A stretch of 64,000 bases of DNA from positions 506,501 to 570,500 of the forward strand of contig NZ_CP092471.1 of assembly GCF_026168555.1 (NCBI RefSeq), in the 5' to 3' direction. Shown in pieces: positions 9,573 through 19,646 of this stretch (position 1 is its first letter; the number at the start of each line of letters is the position of its first letter). This DNA is from Qipengyuania spongiae (GTDB lineage: Bacteria > Pseudomonadota > Alphaproteobacteria > Sphingomonadales > Sphingomonadaceae). The translations under genes were made by a program, and so were the position numbers. Below the pieces are notes generated by a model that did not search any database, was not told where the DNA came from, and saw only the letters and a program-made list of their open reading frames with translations.

Positions 9573-11159
9573 TCAGTGGCGGAAGTGACGCATCCCGGTG
9601 AACACCATGGCCAAGCCATGCTCGTCAGCGGCAGCGATTACCTCCTCGTCGCGAATCGAGCCACCCGGCTGGATGATCGCGGTCGCGCCCGCTTCGGCGG
9701 CGGCCAGCAGACCGTCGGCGAAGGGGAAGAAGGCGTCGGAAGCCACCGCGCTGCCCTTGGTCCGCGGTTCGGACCAGCCATAGGTTTCGGCGGCCTCGGC
9801 GGCTTTTATCGCGGCGATCCGGCTCGAATCGCGGCGGTTCATCTGGCCTGCGCCGATGCCGGCCGTCGCGCCGTCCTTCGCATAGACGATCGCGTTCGAC
9901 TTGACGTGGCGGGCGACGGTCCAGGCGAACAGGCAGTCCTTCAATTCCTGCTCGCTCGGCTCGCGCTTGGTGACGATCTTCAGGTCTTCAGCGCTGATCG
10001 CCCCGTTGTCGCGCGTCTGGACGAGCAGGCCACCGGTGATCGTCACCTGCGTCACGCCGGGGCGGCGCGGATCGGGGAGGCCATCGGTGATGAGCAGGCG
10101 CAGGTTCTTCTTCTTCGCGAAGGCTGCGCGCGCCGCCTCGTCCGCACCGGGCGCGACGACGACTTCAGTGAAGATCTCGCAGATCGCTTCGGCCGTCGGA
10201 CCGTCGAGCGGGACATTGGTCGCGACGATCCCGCCGAAAGCCGAGACGCTGTCGCAATGCAGTGCATCGGTCCAGGCGTCGAGCAGGCTGGCACGCTGGG
10301 CGACGCCGCAGGGATTGGCGTGCTTGACGATGACCACGGCCGGATCGCCGCCCGCGAACTCCGCAGCCAGTTCCAGCGCGGCGTTGGCGTCGTTGTAGTT
10401 GTTGTAGGAGAGCTCCTTGCCCTGCACCTGCTCGGCCTGCGGCAGACCCTTGGCGACGACACGCTGGGGCACGTAGAGCGCCGCCTTCTGATGCGGGTTC
10501 TCGCCATAGCGCAATTCGCCTGCCAGCGTGCTCGCCATGGCGCGGCGAGCGGGGAAGGTCTCGCCCTGATCGGCATGAGCGAACCACTGGCCGATCGCCG
10601 CGTCATAGGCCGCGGTGGCAGCGAACGCCTTGGCCGCCATGCGCTTGCGGAAATCGAGTGAGGTCGCGCCCGAACTCTCGATCTCGGCCAGCAGCGCGTC
10701 GTAATCCGCCGGATCGGTCAGGATCGTCACGTAACGGTGGTTCTTGGCCGCGCTGCGGACCATGCTCGGCCCGCCGATATCGATGTTCTCGATGATCTCG
10801 TCGCGTTCGGCACCCTTGGCGACCGTCGCCTCGAACGGGTAGAGATTGACCACAACGAGATCGATCGCGCCGATTCCGTGCTCCTGCATCGCGGTAGCAT
10901 GGGCAGCATCATCGCGCACGGCGAGAAGCCCGCCATGAACCATCGGGTGGAGCGTCTTGACCCGGCCGTCCATCATCTCGGGAAAGCCGGTGACGTCCGA
11001 CACGTCGCGGACCTCGAGCCCCGCCTCGCGCAGCGCCTTGGCCGTGCCGCCGGTGGAGACGAGTTCCACCCCGCGCGCCGCCAGCGCCTGTCCCAGTTCG
11101 ACCAATCCGCTCTTGTCGGACACCGAAAGCAGTGCCCGTCCGATCGCTACCTCGCTCAA
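9573..11159 (-). CDS. purH: bifunctional AICAR transformylase / IMP cyclohydrolase
   Basis: PurH performs the last two steps of IMP synthesis. The 528-residue protein has the N-terminal IMP cyclohydrolase (MGS-like) domain with [25 protein letters not shown] and [16 protein letters not shown]. The C-terminal transformylase domain shows [35 protein letters not shown], and [23 protein letters not shown] broken at its usual positions. The start is set at TTG 11159 (product [13 protein letters not shown]), just past the stop of the heparinase-like gene at 11165. No ATG or GTG lies at the correct place, and the residues before it are out of family. Confidence 0.95.
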
Positions 11160-11164
11160 AATGC

Positions 11165-13018
11165 TTACCCCATTCTCTTCAGCAGCCAAGGGAAGCGTTC
11201 CCCGCTGCGCGATGTCAGGCCCGATATCACGAGCTGCCGGCTGGCGCGCGGGCGGCCCAGCCCGTCGACCCACAGGCTGTCCTCGACCGTCAGCTCCTGC
11301 CCGTTGCTGTCGCCGCCGAGGCGGAAATGCCAGTAGCTGCCGTCGGGCAGCGCAAGGCCGGCGCCTCGCCCGTCTTCCGACAGCCCGATCTCGATTCGCG
11401 GCGCCAGATGGAAGCGGATGGCGAAGTCGATCTTGCCGCGCTTGCCGCGCCGCCCCGCGGGCTCCAGCACGTCCTCGCCGCGCAGTTCCTCGCCCTCGGG
11501 CGAAAGGATCAGCACTCTCCGGTGGGTCAGGCCGAAGCGCGAGGCATAGCCGTCATGCGCGGCCTCGAGCCGGGTAGCCGAGCGGCCGCGCACCTTGATC
11601 TCGCCACGCTGGACGTCGACTTCCTCGACCCCTTTGCCGATCTGGCCCTTGATGAGGACGGCGGTGGAATTGGCATCGTCGAGCACGAGAGTCGAATGCG
11701 CGGCGGTGGCGCGCAAACCCTGCTCGATCCGTGCCGGTGTGGCGCCGCCGGCGACTTCGGCACCGCCGCAATTGACCACGATGCGCTGCTCGCCATGGCT
11801 GAACTCGAAAGCCAGCGTGGAGGCGCAGCCGAAGCGGGCATGGCGCGGGCGCGGCGGCGGCGCGGCGTCGAACTGCAGCACGCCCTTGCCCGCCGTGGCG
11901 CGCTGATAGCCCCATTGGCGCAGTTCGCGCGGCGGGCGGGCGCGCACGCCGCTCGCCTCGACCAGTTGAGCGAAATCCCGGGGCGAGACGGCATTCGCAC
12001 CCTGCCACGATCCCAGCCCGCCATCGCCGTGGCGCAGGGTCAGCAAGGGCGGAACCAGCATTTCGATCATCGCGCCGAGCGCGGCGGGCGGATCACGCCG
12101 CACGGCGGCATAGCAGGCGCGAAGGTCGATCAGCAGCGCCACCGCCTCCATCTGCGCGAGTGGGCTGCGCGACAGGAGGCCGCCATCCTCGCTCGCGACC
12201 TCGCCCAGCGCGCGCAGGAACCCGGCCTCGCCGAACAGGCGGCGCGGCCGGCCGTCGGGCAACAACAGCCCCGCCGCGACGATCGCGCACCATCCGGCAA
12301 GCGCTCCCAAGCGATCGGGCGCGGTTTCGACCTTGCGGTCCAGCCAGCGGGCCGTCGCCTCGATCACGTCGTGAATCTCGCCCCGCCGCTTCGGGTTTTC
12401 TCCCGAGAGGAGCAGCGGCGCATGGACCAGCCAGGCGAGCAGGCGCTGGCCGGCGCGCTCGACCGTCCAGGCCGGGCCCTTGCCGGGCTCGGCATTGCAT
12501 TTGAGCCAGTCGAAGAAGATGCCTTCCGCCTGCGCTCTGCACTGTTCGCGCGGTGCCGCGGCGGCGAGATCGCGCAGCCAGGTGAAGCCGTGCAGCACGC
12601 GATTGACCGGCGGGGCGTGGCTGGCACTGGAGGAAAAGTCGCACTTGTTAATTTCCAGCTTCAGCCCGTCGATCGTGAACTGCCCGGCGCGCACGCCCTT
12701 GCCGCGCGCCAGATCGCCGGCGAGCGGGGTCTCGACCGTCCCCAGCAGACGCGGGCGGGCGGGCTTGCGCAAGGGCGCCGCGAGGAACGAGCCAGGCACG
12801 CCGATGCGATAGGCCCAGCGCAACCCGGAATCGAGCAGCCCCTCGCGCGGCGGGGCGAAATCGGCAGGGACCAGCGCGCGGGCCGGCGCGAGTTCGGCCG
12901 GGCCGCCCTCTTCGGCCAGTGCCTCGACCTCGTCGTCGGCCAGCATGAAAGGCGCCGAGCCTTCTTCCGAAAGCGTCTCGTCCTGGCCGCGCTGAAGCGT
13001 AAGCGCGCCCTCGCTCAT
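11165..13018 (-). CDS. heparinase II/III-family protein
   Basis: This 617-residue protein has an alpha/alpha-toroid lyase-like domain (about residues 100-400, with [16 protein letters not shown] and [12 protein letters not shown]) followed by the heparinase II/III beta-sandwich (about 410-600, with [20 protein letters not shown] and [14 protein letters not shown]). Family members cleave uronic-acid polysaccharides, but in this context, between rpe and purH in a four-base-overlap operon, the substrate is unknown. No signal peptide is seen, so it is probably cytoplasmic. The start at 13018 overlaps the rpe stop. Confidence 0.85.
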
Positions 13019-13919: not shown

Positions 13920-14411
13920 ATGAACAGGATGCTTTTCCCGGCGATCGCCGGATCGCTTGCCGCAGCCGCCGTTCTGGTCGCTGGACCGGCCCAGGCACAG
14001 TACCGGCAGAAGATTTCCAATAACCCCTCCGCCTGTTCCGGCAACGGCCCCGCCGTCTGGGTGACGGTCAATGGCGTCAGCGAGAGCCGCGGCAAGATCC
14101 GCGTCCAGAGTTATCGCGCGATCAAGCAGGACTGGCTGGAAAGCGGGCGCTGGATCAACCGGATCGAAGTGCCGGCCAAGGCGGGGCAGATGACGTTTTG
14201 CGTGCCGGTGCCGGCGGCTGGCCGCTATGGCATTGCAGTGCGCCACGATGTCAACGGCAACGGCAAGACCGACCTTTCGACCGATGGCGGGGCGATGTCG
14301 AACAACCCTTCGTTCAACATCTTCAATCTCGGGAAGCCGAGCTACACCAAGGTGGGGTTCGACGTCGGCAATTCGGTGAAGTCGATCACGATCAACATGC
14401 GCTACATGTGA
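13920..14411 (+). CDS. exported DUF2141-domain protein
   Basis: The 163-residue product has a signal peptide ([19 protein letters not shown], cleavage before QYRQK). The mature part is a DUF2141 beta-sandwich, with the recognisable DVNGNGKTD turn and the closing ITINMRY strand. Two cysteines (in SACSGN and FCVPV) could form a disulfide. Function is unknown. A second DUF2141 protein is encoded at 29643-30143. The last ten bases overlap the convergent TAM41-like gene. Confidence 0.85.
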
Positions 14412-15310
14412 TCGGCGCGCTTCTTGCGGCCGCGGCGCCAGAGCGTCCATAGGACGCCCGGCGCCGCAAGGAGCGGATGTTTCTCGCGAAAGGGCGTCAC
14501 CTCGAAGGCGATCCCCGTGTGCCGCTCCACCTTCCACGCGGCATAGGCGGCCGCGCCTTCGAACGTAGTGGTCGCCTTGCTGAGGCGAAGGAGGTTGAGC
14601 GGCTTCCCGAGCCTCTGCCGTGTGTTCCACCAGCGCCGGATCGTCGCGCGCCTGCGCTCGTCGAGACCGGGCCGCAACCTCTCTCCGTCGCGCACGAATT
14701 CGATGTCCTGCTCGGACCAAGCGAGCGGGAGGAGCCCGTCGAAATGCGCGCGGTTGACGGCAAGAATGTCGTTCTCGCGCCCCGCCTTCTCGACCCGGAA
14801 TTCGGCACGATAGGTTGCCCGGAACAGGGCGCGCCAGTAATCGCCAGCGGTTCCTTCCTCCGGGCCCAGCGCGGCAGCGAGGCGACTGGCGATGCGCGCC
14901 GCGGCAACCACCGCTTCCTGCACCGATTCTGCGGCTTCCTGGTCGCGCGTCCAGGCCAGTGCCGATGGCTGGACGAAGCGCGCCCAAATCGTCGTGTCGC
15001 GCGTCTCGCCCGCGGCGGCCGCACGGAATTTCGCCAGCGACATGGTGGCGATTTTCGCGCGGAGGATCGACCTCTCGTGCCGCCACTCGCGGTAGCTGAC
15101 GCGCGGCCATATCCGCTCGACCTGCGGGCCGGGCAGCAATACGTAGAAATCGAGCACGCCCTCGAGCGATCCGGTGCGCAGATTGGATCCGTAGAACAGC
15201 ACCGCAAGCGCGCCCGCCTCCGCGCCGAGCTTGCTTGCGAACGCGGCGACTTCGGGCCGAACGTCCTGCGCCAGGGCTTCCGTGACACGGTCCCGCAGGC
15301 TGCCGCTCAT
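14402..15310 (-). CDS. nucleotidyltransferase-like protein, candidate TAM41-type CDP-diacylglycerol synthase
   Basis: This 302-residue protein lacks membrane helices. It has a nucleotidyltransferase-type loop, LFYGSNLRTGS at residues 38-48, followed by an acid-bearing strand LDFYVLLPG (53-61). Further on are AKIATMSLAKF (85-95) and IWARFVQP (108-115). This order (YGS loop, DF strand, K-x-MS segment, R-x-x-P element) parallels mitochondrial TAM41, which makes CDP-diacylglycerol from phosphatidate and CTP. The identification is mine from motif order, not a search. It lies seven bases downstream of a diacylglycerol kinase gene, whose product phosphatidate would be its substrate. Confidence 0.6.
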   Translation of the reverse strand: MSGSLRDRVTEALAQDVRPEVAAFASKLGAEAGALAVLFYGSNLRTGSLEGVLDFYVLLPGPQVERIWPRVSYREWRHERSILRAKIATMSLAKFRAAAAGETRDTTIWARFVQPSALAWTRDQEAAESVQEAVVAAARIASRLAAALGPEEGTAGDYWRALFRATYRAEFRVEKAGRENDILAVNRAHFDGLLPLAWSEQDIEFVRDGERLRPGLDERRRATIRRWWNTRQRLGKPLNLLRLSKATTTFEGAAAYAAWKVERHTGIAFEVTPFREKHPLLAAPGVLWTLWRRGRKKRADHM

Positions 15311-15317
15311 TGCTTGC

Positions 15318-16373
15318 TCATGGTACGACGAAGGTGAGTTCGGGCCCCTGCGCGACGAGATAGGACCCCGCCTCGAACGCTTCTCCGTCGAGGATGAACT
15401 GCCCGCCCACCCGCAATTCGAAGGCTTCGGCGTCGATCTGATGCAGGCCCGCCCGGCTCAGCCATTTCGGCTGCCAGCCGGCAACGATCAGCGGAAGGGC
15501 CGCCATAAGCCACCGCTTGGGCCGATCCATCACAGCGAGTTTCAAGCCCCCGCGTTCCGGCCCGAACGGCTTCAGGCCCATCGGCATCCGGTGCAGCGTG
15601 GAAACGAAGAGGATCTCACGCCGCGACGGATCGCCGTGACCCGAATGAGGCGCCGGGTCGCCATCCGGCAGCAGGCGAATGGTCATGGGCACGCCGCGCC
15701 GCCAGGGATTGCTGTTGCGCCCGAAGACCGACTGGATGACGCCCCAGCCGGTCGTGACGCCGACGCCGAGACTGTCGAAAAAGCCAAGCTTGTGCGCGCC
15801 CTGCCCCGCGCCGATCGCATGGGTGAAGGCTCCTGCCCCGAGGATGAAGCCGACCAAAGGATCGTTCCCCTGCTCGCTGGCTCGGCCATCGCCCCGGCCA
15901 TCCGCGTCGCCCAATCGCGTGATCTGCAACGGCCGGCGGACGACCCTGCGCCCGGCCTCGAACGCCTCGATCGCCTCGACCAGAGTCGCATCGGTCGGCG
16001 CGCCGAGATCGACGTTGAGCGCGTTGGTCTTGCCCTTGGGCAGGATCGCGAGGACGGGCCAGTCGGCGCCGAATACCGAATGCCCGCAGGTCAGCACGTC
16101 GCGCACCGTACCGTCGCCGCCGTTGATGACGAGATATTCGATGTTCCGCGCGGCGAAATCGGCGAGCACTTCGACGATCTGCGACCGGGTCTGGGGCGTC
16201 GCGACGACGACATCCTCGCGCCCGCCGAAATAGAGGTCCTGGCCGCGATTGCGATGGCTGCGCGGATTGTAGACGATACCGATCCGCGCCCTGCCCTGTT
16301 CGCGGTCCGGCTCGGGCACGACTGCGCTGCCGGGAGAGGCGGGGCCTGGCAGGCGGTGGATCGACGCAGTCAT
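15318..16373 (-). CDS. diacylglycerol kinase catalytic-domain lipid kinase
   Basis: This 351-residue soluble lipid kinase belongs to the DAGK/YegS family. It begins the domain with RIGIVYNPRSHRN, carries the nucleotide motif INGGDGTVRDVL (GGDGT at 85-89), then LPKGKTNALNVDLG in the substrate-lid region and a C-terminal beta-domain (FPLGPE-like strands to LTFVVP). It likely phosphorylates diacylglycerol to phosphatidate. Start ATG 16373 gives MTASIHRLPG; longer in-frame extensions upstream are not family-like. It is followed by the TAM41-like gene in the same unit. Confidence 0.88.
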   Translation of the reverse strand: MTASIHRLPGPASPGSAVVPEPDREQGRARIGIVYNPRSHRNRGQDLYFGGREDVVVATPQTRSQIVEVLADFAARNIEYLVINGGDGTVRDVLTCGHSVFGADWPVLAILPKGKTNALNVDLGAPTDATLVEAIEAFEAGRRVVRRPLQITRLGDADGRGDGRASEQGNDPLVGFILGAGAFTHAIGAGQGAHKLGFFDSLGVGVTTGWGVIQSVFGRNSNPWRRGVPMTIRLLPDGDPAPHSGHGDPSRREILFVSTLHRMPMGLKPFGPERGGLKLAVMDRPKRWLMAALPLIVAGWQPKWLSRAGLHQIDAEAFELRVGGQFILDGEAFEAGSYLVAQGPELTFVVP

Positions 16374-16579: not shown

Positions 16580-17275
16580 TCAGGCATCCTTGAGCTCCGA
16601 AGCGAACACGGCCGGTTCGTGATTTTCCTTCGGCGTCTCCGAAATGATCTTGGGCGGCATTGGGAGGTCGGGCGTCGGGTTGCCGGGCTCGAGCTCGAAC
16701 AACTGGGCGAGCCGGCCATTGCGCACGTCGTAGATCCAGCCGTGCAGGGCGAGTTCCTGACCGCGCCCGACCGCCGCGCGAACCACATCGAGTTCCGACA
16801 AGCGCAGGAGCTGTTCGCGCACGTTCAGCTCGGCGAGGCGGTTCTGCCGCGACAGCGGATCCTCGACTGCGTCGAGCTCGCTGCGATAGGTTTCGTAAAC
16901 CTCGCGCACCGAGCGCAGCCACGACTTCATGTGCCCCGTGGCATCGCCCCGCATGGCTGCGCCGATGCCGCTACAACCGTAATGGCCGCACACGACGATA
17001 TGCTCGATCCGGAAATCCTCCACCGCGTGCTGGAGGTCGGCCAGGAGATTTTCGTCGTCCTGATAGACCAGGTTGGCGAGGTTGCGGTGAATGAACAGTT
17101 CACCCGGACGAGTCTGGGTGATCTGGTGCGGCGCGACGCGGCTGTCGGAGCCGCCGATCCACATGATCTCGGGATTCTGTCCCACCGTCTGCTGCGCGAA
17201 ATAGTCCTTCTTGCGTTCGCGCATCTCGGCCGACCAGGCCTTGTTCGAGAGCATCAGTTCGCGGATTGTCTTCAT
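16580..17275 (-). CDS. beta-carbonic anhydrase-like protein lacking a zinc cysteine
   Basis: This 231-residue beta-class carbonic anhydrase homologue keeps the D44/R46 dyad in GGSDSRVAP, the HRNLANLV loop, and H98 and C101 in VVCGHYGCSG. The residue that should be the first zinc cysteine is G42 (codon GGC): the family reads GCSDSR, this protein GGSDSR. Zinc binding and CO2 hydration should therefore be impaired or altered. It overlaps the SulP transporter gene by ATGA and is its last gene. It may be a structural or regulatory partner of the transporter; that is inference. Confidence 0.88.
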   Translation of the reverse strand: MKTIRELMLSNKAWSAEMRERKKDYFAQQTVGQNPEIMWIGGSDSRVAPHQITQTRPGELFIHRNLANLVYQDDENLLADLQHAVEDFRIEHIVVCGHYGCSGIGAAMRGDATGHMKSWLRSVREVYETYRSELDAVEDPLSRQNRLAELNVREQLLRLSELDVVRAAVGRGQELALHGWIYDVRNGRLAQLFELEPGNPTPDLPMPPKIISETPKENHEPAVFASELKDA

Positions 17276-18852
17276 GTGTAGACCACCTTCTTGGAGGGTG
17301 CTTCGAGCGGGATGTCCTCGAGATGGTCGACATCGCCGCGAATGGTCACCGACACGTCGCGGAAGCACGCGTTGCGGGCGAAGCTGTTGATGATGTCGAT
17401 ATTGTCGGGGTCGATGAATTCCGCCCGTTCCAGATCGATCACCACGCTCGCGCCCTCGGGCACCTTGCCCAGCGAGTTCTGCAGCTCGTACTTGTGGATG
17501 AAGTAGAGGTTGCGGCGGGCGCTCACCATCCAGAAATCGCCATCATTCGCGACGCTGATCGACGTGCGGAAATTGCGCGCCACGACGAAGACGAAACCGA
17601 TGACCAAGCCGATGATGATCCCCCGCAGCAGGTCGGTGAACAGAATCGCCGCGATCGTTGCGATGAACGGCACGAACTGGTGCCAGCCCTGCGACCAGCG
17701 GCGCTTGTAGAGATCGGGGGTGTTGAGCTTGTAGCCGACCTGAATCAGGATCGCGGCGAGCGCGGCGAGCGGGATCAGGTTGAGCACGAACGGGATCAGC
17801 AGCACGCTCAGCAGCAACCAGAAGCCGTGCAGGATGGCCGAGGTCTTGGTCTCTGCGCCCGCGGCGACGTTGGCGGAAGAACGCACGATGACCGAGGTGA
17901 GCGGCAGGCCGCCGATCAGGCCCGACAGGAAGTTGCCGCCGCCCTGGGCGAGCAGTTCGTGGTTCTTGTCGGTGGTGCGGCGCTGGGGATCGATCTCGTC
18001 CACCGCCTTGACGCAGAGCAGCGATTCGAGGCTGGCGACGATGGCGAGCGTGACCGCCACAATCCACACGTCGGGCATGCCGATGGCCGAGAAATCCGGT
18101 GTGCGGAACTGGCCGACGAATTCGCCGAGCGAACCGGAGATCGGCACCTGGACCAGATGGCTCGGCTCGACCGCGAGGCCCGGAGCGAAGATCTTGAACG
18201 CCTCGTTGGCGAGGACGCCGAACACCACGACGACGAGCGGGCCGGGCAGCAGCTTCAGCGGACCGTTCTTGGGCCGTTTCGCATCCCACCAGAAAAGGAA
18301 CAGGATCGAGACGAAGGCGATCAGCATCGGACCGGGCAGGAAGAAGTCCCACACCGAATAGAACAGCGCCGAGAGCGTGTTGAGCCCGTCGGGCTGGAGG
18401 AAGCTGAGGCTGCCTTCGAAATCGCCGTCATAGCCGAGCGCATGGGGGATTTGCTTGAGGATCAGGATGAGGCCGATCGCCGCCAGCATCCCGGTGATGA
18501 CCGAACTGGGGACGAATTCGGACAGCGTGCCGGACCGCGTGAAGTAGAGGCCCACCTGCAGAATGCCCGAAAGCGCCACGGCGAGCAGGAAGACTTCCCA
18601 GCTCGGCAGCACTTCGAGCGCGTCGAGGACGATGACGGTGAGGCCGGCGGCGGGGCCGCTGACCGACAATTGCGATTTCGACAGAATGCCGACGACGATG
18701 CCGCCGACGATGCCGGCGATCAGTCCCGAGAACAGCGGCGCGCCCGAAGCGAGCGCGATACCCAGACACAAAGGCAAGGCGACCAGCGCCACCACGATCG
18801 ATGCGGGGATATCCTTGCCCAGGGATGAGAAGAAGGACGGTTTATCGGCCAC
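17272..18852 (-). CDS. SulP-family anion (probably bicarbonate) transporter with STAS domain
   Basis: This 526-residue SulP permease has a membrane region of multiple helices (about residues 15-400, including ALPLCLGIALASGAPLFSG and SVSGPAAGLTVIV) and a C-terminal STAS-like domain (about 430-515, GASVVIDLERAEFIDPDNI). SulP proteins carry sulfate, bicarbonate or other anions; pairing with a carbonic anhydrase gene by a four-base overlap points to bicarbonate. The start is GTG 18852 with AAGGAG five bases upstream. Only 46 bases separate it from a terminator-like hairpin behind the upstream carbonic anhydrase gene. Confidence 0.9.
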   Translation of the reverse strand: MADKPSFFSSLGKDIPASIVVALVALPLCLGIALASGAPLFSGLIAGIVGGIVVGILSKSQLSVSGPAAGLTVIVLDALEVLPSWEVFLLAVALSGILQVGLYFTRSGTLSEFVPSSVITGMLAAIGLILILKQIPHALGYDGDFEGSLSFLQPDGLNTLSALFYSVWDFFLPGPMLIAFVSILFLFWWDAKRPKNGPLKLLPGPLVVVVFGVLANEAFKIFAPGLAVEPSHLVQVPISGSLGEFVGQFRTPDFSAIGMPDVWIVAVTLAIVASLESLLCVKAVDEIDPQRRTTDKNHELLAQGGGNFLSGLIGGLPLTSVIVRSSANVAAGAETKTSAILHGFWLLLSVLLIPFVLNLIPLAALAAILIQVGYKLNTPDLYKRRWSQGWHQFVPFIATIAAILFTDLLRGIIIGLVIGFVFVVARNFRTSISVANDGDFWMVSARRNLYFIHKYELQNSLGKVPEGASVVIDLERAEFIDPDNIDIINSFARNACFRDVSVTIRGDVDHLEDIPLEAPSKKVVYT

Positions 18853-18965: not shown

Positions 18966-19646
18966 CTAGGCCGCTTCCCGCTTCTGTATCGCGCGGCCGC
19001 CGAGATCGGCGACCGGCACGGCATCGGTGTCCATCAGGCGGAACTTGCCGGTCTCGCCGTCGAGCGCGCGGATCGCGCCTTCGGCGATGTCGAAGACCCA
19101 GCCGTGAAGGCGAAGCTCGCCCTTCGCCAGCGCGGTCGCGACACAGGGGTGGCTACGCAGATGCGTGAGCTGAAGGATCACGTTCTCCTCGACCAGCCGG
19201 TCGATCTTTTCACCCTCTCCGGCAGAGGCGCAGCACGCCTCGACCACGGAATGCGCCGCGGTCGAATGGCCGATCCATTCCTTGACCGCCGGCATCCCGT
19301 CGAGCGCGCCTTCGGGAGCGTAATGCGCTTTCATCGCGCCGCAATCGGCATGGCCGCACACGACGATGTCGGTGACGCCGAGACCGACCACCGCATATTC
19401 GATGGTCGAGGTCACGCCGCCGTTCACCCGCTGCCACGGCGGAACGATGTTGCCCGCATTGCGGATGACGAAGAGTTCGCCCGGCTCCGACTGGGTGATG
19501 AGCTCGGGAACGACCCGGCTGTCGGAGCAGCTGATCATCAGCGTGGCCGGGCTCTGGCCTTCGCGGCCCAGCGTTTCGAGGCGTTGTTTCTGTTCGGGAT
19601 AGACGTCGTCGCGGAAGCGCGTGACGCCTTTCATCAGCTGTTCCAT
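18966..19646 (-). CDS. can: beta-carbonic anhydrase
   Basis: This enzyme interconverts CO2 and bicarbonate in the cytoplasm. The 226-residue protein carries all catalytic residues: C40, D42 and R44 in ISCSDSRVVP, and H99 and C102 in VVCGHADCGAMK. The GELFVIRNAGNIVPP loop is also canonical. A good ribosome site (AGGAG) precedes ATG 19646. It lies between a two-component system and the SulP/degenerate carbonic anhydrase pair on the same strand, with a hairpin terminator separating it from the latter. Confidence 0.95.
   Translation of the reverse strand: MEQLMKGVTRFRDDVYPEQKQRLETLGREGQSPATLMISCSDSRVVPELITQSEPGELFVIRNAGNIVPPWQRVNGGVTSTIEYAVVGLGVTDIVVCGHADCGAMKAHYAPEGALDGMPAVKEWIGHSTAAHSVVEACCASAGEGEKIDRLVEENVILQLTHLRSHPCVATALAKGELRLHGWVFDIAEGAIRALDGETGKFRLMDTDAVPVADLGGRAIQKREAA

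Follow-up and report, generated by a model that had tools for sequence, protein, structure and literature searches.

The window, which is the whole stretch of 64,000 nucleotides analysed here, contains two neighbouring genes on the minus strand. The initial annotation had placed two open reading frames seven bases apart at 15318-16373 and 14402-15310, and both were found there.

15318..16373, minus strand: DAGK_cat lipid kinase (Pfam PF00781), 351 aa, ATG at 16373; likely a CpgB-like ceramide kinase
15311..15317, minus strand: gap of seven bases between the kinase ORF and the 302-aa ORF, read from the sequence
14402..15310, minus strand: Tam41-fold nucleotidyltransferase, 302 aa; likely a CpgC-like CTP:ceramide-1-phosphate cytidylyltransferase, by prediction

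The seven-base gap is consistent with one transcript carrying both genes. Upstream of the pair lies a beta-carbonic anhydrase (PF00484, window 16580-17368); also upstream, and by eye only, 17272-18852 reads as a SulP-like transporter and 18966-19646 as a second carbonic anhydrase. A DUF2141 ORF (76.6 bits, window 13920-14411) is convergent with the 302-aa gene and overlaps its final 10 bases.

The window kinase matched the Pfam DAGK_cat profile above its cut-off (E 4e-10). Its GGDGT motif (residues 85-89) was conserved in the alignment, and the protein contains one cysteine and no CxxxCxxC motif. The genome encodes one further DAGK_cat protein and one NAD kinase. In Caulobacter crescentus, CpgB (CC_1160 / CCNA_01218) is described as a ceramide kinase (PMC10331486); like the window kinase it is of the DAGK type, has a GGDG motif, is without CxxxCxxC and is paired with cpgC. 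The two kinases are likened by family and position, and ceramide specificity of the window kinase is predicted.

Fold and conserved residues of the 302-residue protein

Searched alone, the 302-residue protein gave no significant sequence match in Pfam, NCBIfam or PDB (phmmer). Homology searches returned 4017 homologues at E <= 0.001 among 8000 candidates scored, so the reading frame is a real, conserved gene. Among the 120 matches listed per search, most were unnamed or hypothetical and a few UniRef entries were named phosphatidate cytidylyltransferase; no Caulobacter protein was seen among these matches, names being given for part of them.

The YGS (residues 40-42) and LDF (53-55) elements reported in the initial annotation are present. 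Its lysine and arginine motifs are real too, with a different spacing from that given: K86-IAT-MS reads K-x3-MS and R111-FVQ-P115 reads R-x3-P. In 42 of 42 aligned homologues Y40, G41, S42, D54, P69, K86, W109, R111, Q114 and P115 were invariant, and so were E170, R172, E174, T249, F250, Y256, K260 and P279. D54 and K86 are thereby candidates for the catalytic acid and the CTP-binding residues. Loci L061 and L065 (automatic start choice) and L067 and L069 (cut at contig ends) were left out of both the alignment (A3) and the tree described below; the alignment also omits L052, which is close to L049.

Structural modelling predicts a nucleotidyltransferase domain with a winged helix, the combination that marks Tam41/Mmp37. 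Tam41 was by far the closest structural match of the model; the match ends at model residue 233-250, and the conserved C-terminal part with the invariant Y256, K260 and P279 extends past it. Identity to the known Tam41/Mmp37 structures (S. pombe 6ig2/6ig4; Firmicutes 7ecd) was 10-14%. The Pfam Tam41_Mmp37 check proposed in the initial annotation gave no PF09139 match at E <= 1 for the window protein, which thus lies under the detection level of this profile, and family profiles searched against PDB returned no Tam41 match for it. PF09139 matches were obtained in 3 of 42 members of the homologous family. In hmmscan L056 scored 28.8 bits (E 9.8e-7), above the cut-off of 24; L048 (23.1) and L005, which is the gene in L070 (21.8), scored below it. 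Against PDB, L070 searched alone reached 6ig2 at E 1.6 with an HMM alignment that was not significant, and the single search with L056 did not find Tam41. A genome scan with PF09139, which is insensitive, was positive in 0/1 own genome, 1/200 phylum genomes and 1/289 class genomes; these counts say little about absence, because the class scan missed L056 (genome G311, 28.8 bits). With the fold match and one homologue above the PF09139 cut-off, the annotation of a TAM41-type nucleotidyltransferase beside a lipid kinase holds, and the model strongly supports the Tam41 fold.

No strongly hydrophobic stretch was found in the protein (highest 19-residue hydropathy 1.53) and its C-terminal part is basic, which bears out the earlier description as soluble in the sense of not integral to the membrane. 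CdsA, on the other hand, is an integral membrane enzyme with no homology to Tam41 (PMC7018664). The 302-residue protein showed no PF01148 match and no transmembrane character of the CdsA type. CdsA would likewise yield a CDP-activated lipid, and the window genome has its own separate copy, which is its one CdsA-family gene.

Gene neighbourhood and distribution of the family

The synteny set comprised 60 loci: 20 order regions (drawn from 93 other positive genomes), 34 class places (every one of the 33 positive class genomes other than the own genome), the G102 locus, L001-L004 and the window. Flanks of 8-9 kb at most were fetched, shorter at contig ends, and 6 kb for L001-L004. The kinase adjoined the cpgC-like gene on the same strand in 55/60 loci. 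Outside the clade that contains the window gene, serine palmitoyltransferase (Spt), CerS or LptF2/G2 was encoded within the fetched stretch in 43/47 loci (Spt 35, CerS 34, Lpt 39, kinase 43). The four exceptions were L089, with a phosphoesterase and the kinase and a contig end 1.4 kb on; L047, where the contig ends inside the kinase; L058, with kinase and CpgA and no Spt, CerS or Lpt; and L069, which holds one part of the gene, the other part lying on L067 of the same genome with kinase, Lpt and CerS.

In the Robiginitomaculum locus L004 (39% identity), the only one of L001-L004 that does not come from Erythrobacteraceae, the gene stands between a DAGK_cat kinase and Spt (649 bits on the NCBIfam equivalog, cut-off 500), and two LptF/LptG proteins, a phosphoesterase and a GNAT-like protein are close by. 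The GNAT-like protein scored just below the Acetyltransf_1 cut-off; given where it lies, and given that PMC11324152 describes CC_1154 as an N-acyltransferase, we take it to be the ceramide synthase CerS. The Dongia mobilis locus L057 is ordered CerS, CDP-alcohol transferase, two Lpt genes, phosphoesterase, CDP-alcohol transferase, kinase, cpgC-like gene, Spt, epimerase and AMP-binding enzyme. With the exception of the first transferase, this order agrees with how PMC11324152 numbers the genes CC_1154 to CC_1164 and describes their roles. The Dongia cluster encodes a further CDP-alcohol phosphotransferase (L057:1475-2689) whose PF01066 domain lies at residues 218-337 of 404, and relatives of it were a separate best match in 5/35 class-set loci.

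Caulobacter CpgC (CC_1161 / CCNA_01219) also lies beside the ceramide kinase gene, with spt as neighbour by gene number (PMC11324152), and carries a CDP-DAG-synthase-type InterPro domain, comparable with the Tam41 fold predicted for the window protein. CC_1161 sits inside the ceramide cluster, whereas the window pair lies outside one. Orthology with CC_1161 is a probable relationship, assigned from synteny.

Within the alphaproteobacterial class sample the cpgC-like gene was present in 34/289 genomes and CerS in 42/289, two of the CerS matches being weak. Both occurred together in 33 genomes, i.e. in 33/34 carriers (Fisher p 5e-34, a value that ignores shared ancestry). The one carrier with no CerS match, G260, is 82% complete, and its locus L045 has part of Spt. 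Nine genomes, including both with weak CerS matches, had CerS and no cpgC-like gene, as would be expected if the gene served the synthesis of a single head group and ceramide could be made without it. The gene was found in 14/299 genomes of the phylum sample, two of them outside the class, and in 94/147 genomes of the order sample with one match each. A PF01148 (CdsA-family) gene was kept in 34/34 class-sample carriers, and a CdsA-replacement role was set aside for this reason.

The split-off clade and its host genome

The window clade (13 loci) showed a different arrangement. The kinase was paired with the gene in 13/13 loci, Spt, CerS or Lpt stood near the pair in 0/13, and CpgA was near in 3/13 (L003, L099, L101). 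No Spt, CerS or LptF2-G2 gene was found within the 64-kb window. Since PMC11324152 reports that sphingolipid genes are scattered in Sphingomonadales, the missing ceramide neighbours do not exclude CpgC membership. The own genome encodes Spt at C1:812118-813311 (797.9 bits on the NCBIfam equivalog, cut-off 670) and a CerS-like gene at C1:1280567-1281715 with an LptF/LptG pair close by. In the corresponding region (L081:9565-14838) a 392-aa protein (10740-11918) with no Pfam match at E <= 0.01 lies between CerS and the LptF/LptG pair, and the region looks like a remnant of a sphingolipid cluster.

Three CDP-alcohol phosphotransferases are encoded in the own genome. None of them matched Dongia CpgA with E <= 1e-3, and no CpgA-like protein was found in this genome. 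The third transferase (L082:7915-8622, G000:C1:1552914-1553621) has 235 aa and a PF01066 domain and is weakly like archaetidylinositol-phosphate synthase; as a cluster companion in other loci it gave one weak match only, at L099. It has no role assigned to it, and we regard it as a candidate enzyme for the glycerate transfer, the step still missing here.

In the tree the window clade (13 rows) had a support of 100/100 and joined, at 97/89, four ceramide-cluster rows: L037 (Niveispirillum lacus) and L038, from Niveispirillum and its genus, and L039 and L040 from family f8. Five further genomes of the same family have cluster-borne genes (L103-L107), and the window clade did not group with these. 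The label 'cluster' in the tree covers any row not marked 'solo' or 'CpgA only', including L047 and L089 without Spt, CerS or Lpt. One family contains two distinct kinase/cpgC lineages, the cluster-borne one and the split-off window clade nearer to Niveispirillum; with one match per genome, this suggests transfer or displacement.

Proposed substrate and product of the pair

It is very probable that the pair belongs to phosphosphingolipid synthesis. We propose that the two genes are related to cpgB and cpgC of Caulobacter, which act in synthesis of the bacterial phosphosphingolipid ceramide phosphoglycerate (CPG). The Tam41-fold enzyme would move CMP from CTP onto ceramide-1-phosphate at the membrane surface, giving CDP-ceramide and pyrophosphate, and a CDP-alcohol phosphotransferase would then put glycerate or phosphoglycerate in the place of CMP, yielding CPG. 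This full proposal, a CpgB/CpgC-like pair with CDP-ceramide as the product, is in our judgement probable, with less assurance than the pathway assignment. CC_1161 is reported to be required for CPG; it has an InterPro domain that suggests a CDP-DAG synthase, and formation of an NDP-activated ceramide was proposed for it (PMC11324152). Nearly all cpgB-bearing genera make, or could make, sphingolipids according to PMC10331486. Several points weigh against the CDP-ceramide reading: the ceramide genes are away from the pair in all 13 window-clade loci, a CpgA-like protein was not found in the own genome, carrier G260 gave no CerS match, and the p-value of the co-occurrence ignores shared ancestry.

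The initial annotation had read the pair as a soluble route from DAG over phosphatidate to CDP-diacylglycerol, separate from CdsA; as an alternative to CdsA, such a route would feed cardiolipin or phosphatidylglycerol. The Tam41 fold favours such a route, as the mitochondrial enzyme makes CDP-DAG (PMC7018664) and, among the bacterial Tam41 proteins already known (PMC11646218; structure 7ecd), one is reported to do the same (PMC11646218). In vitro, Caulobacter CpgB accepts DAG as a substrate for phosphorylation to much the same extent as ceramide (PMC10331486), and the phosphatidate cytidylyltransferase names among the UniRef matches listed point the same way; the in vitro activity and the bacterial CDP-DAG synthase also count against CDP-ceramide. 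However, in the cpgB deletion the phosphatidate of Caulobacter was unchanged in vivo, and ceramide is held to be the in vivo substrate (PMC10331486). Nearly all class-sample carriers also have the CerS-like gene, and the gene context of the relatives is that of ceramide (43/47 loci outside the window clade), not of cardiolipin. The claimed phosphatidate substrate, and a product feeding cardiolipin apart from CdsA, are not supported: the family sits and co-occurs with the ceramide/CPG gene set, the kinase is like CpgB by family and position, and all 34 carriers tested retain a CdsA-family gene. With CdsA kept in these carriers and the gene following ceramide synthesis, we prefer another reading to the soluble CDP-DAG/cardiolipin route and consider this route unlikely.

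An enzyme of the CPG pathway that works without CDP-ceramide, by joining glycerate or phosphoglycerate directly to ceramide-1-phosphate or by using another nucleotide or phosphosphingolipid acceptor, seems improbable to us as well. It agrees with published schemes in which CpgC converts ceramide-1-phosphate to CPG by a mechanism still called unidentified (PMC12275187; PMC13228409), and the conserved C-terminal part beyond the Tam41 match speaks for it too. The predicted nucleotidyltransferase fold, with Tam41 by far the closest match, argues against it, and direct glycerate attachment was termed energetically not very favourable in PMC11324152. Redeployment of the split-off pair in Erythrobacteraceae and kin to another phospholipid or signalling lipid would account for the loss of ceramide neighbours from every window-clade locus and for the separation of this clade from the cluster-borne gene of same-family genomes; yet the kinase is still paired with the gene throughout the clade, CpgA is near in three loci and the window genome retains Spt and CerS, so that we hold this very unlikely.

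The term CDP-ceramide occurred in none of the 5.39 million papers covered by a text search. Titles and abstract openings of the papers retrieved on Tam41, ceramide and cytidylyltransferase described no ceramide-1-phosphate cytidylyltransferase, and searches on Tam41 in Firmicutes and on Erythrobacter sphingolipids gave nothing useful. The genes cpgB and cpgC and a suggested NDP-activated ceramide are already described; the pair would allow an unusually direct test of the CpgC step. More generally, we lean slightly towards the view that the Tam41 fold does not serve phosphatidate alone: in sphingolipid-making proteobacteria it would be a CTP:ceramide-1-phosphate cytidylyltransferase, with CDP-ceramide as the activated donor for bacterial phosphosphingolipids.

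The predicted Tam41 fold and the near-exclusive co-occurrence with CerS reduce the open CpgC step to one assay question, CTP with ceramide-1-phosphate versus CTP with phosphatidate. Acidic sphingolipids of the CPG type support survival of Caulobacter without lipopolysaccharide, and the pair may account for a step missing from bacterial sphingolipid synthesis. CDP-ceramide, if formed, would be a new activated lipid and extend the range of Tam41 enzymes; the enzyme still missing for the acidic sphingolipids would then be expected to be a CDP-alcohol phosphotransferase.
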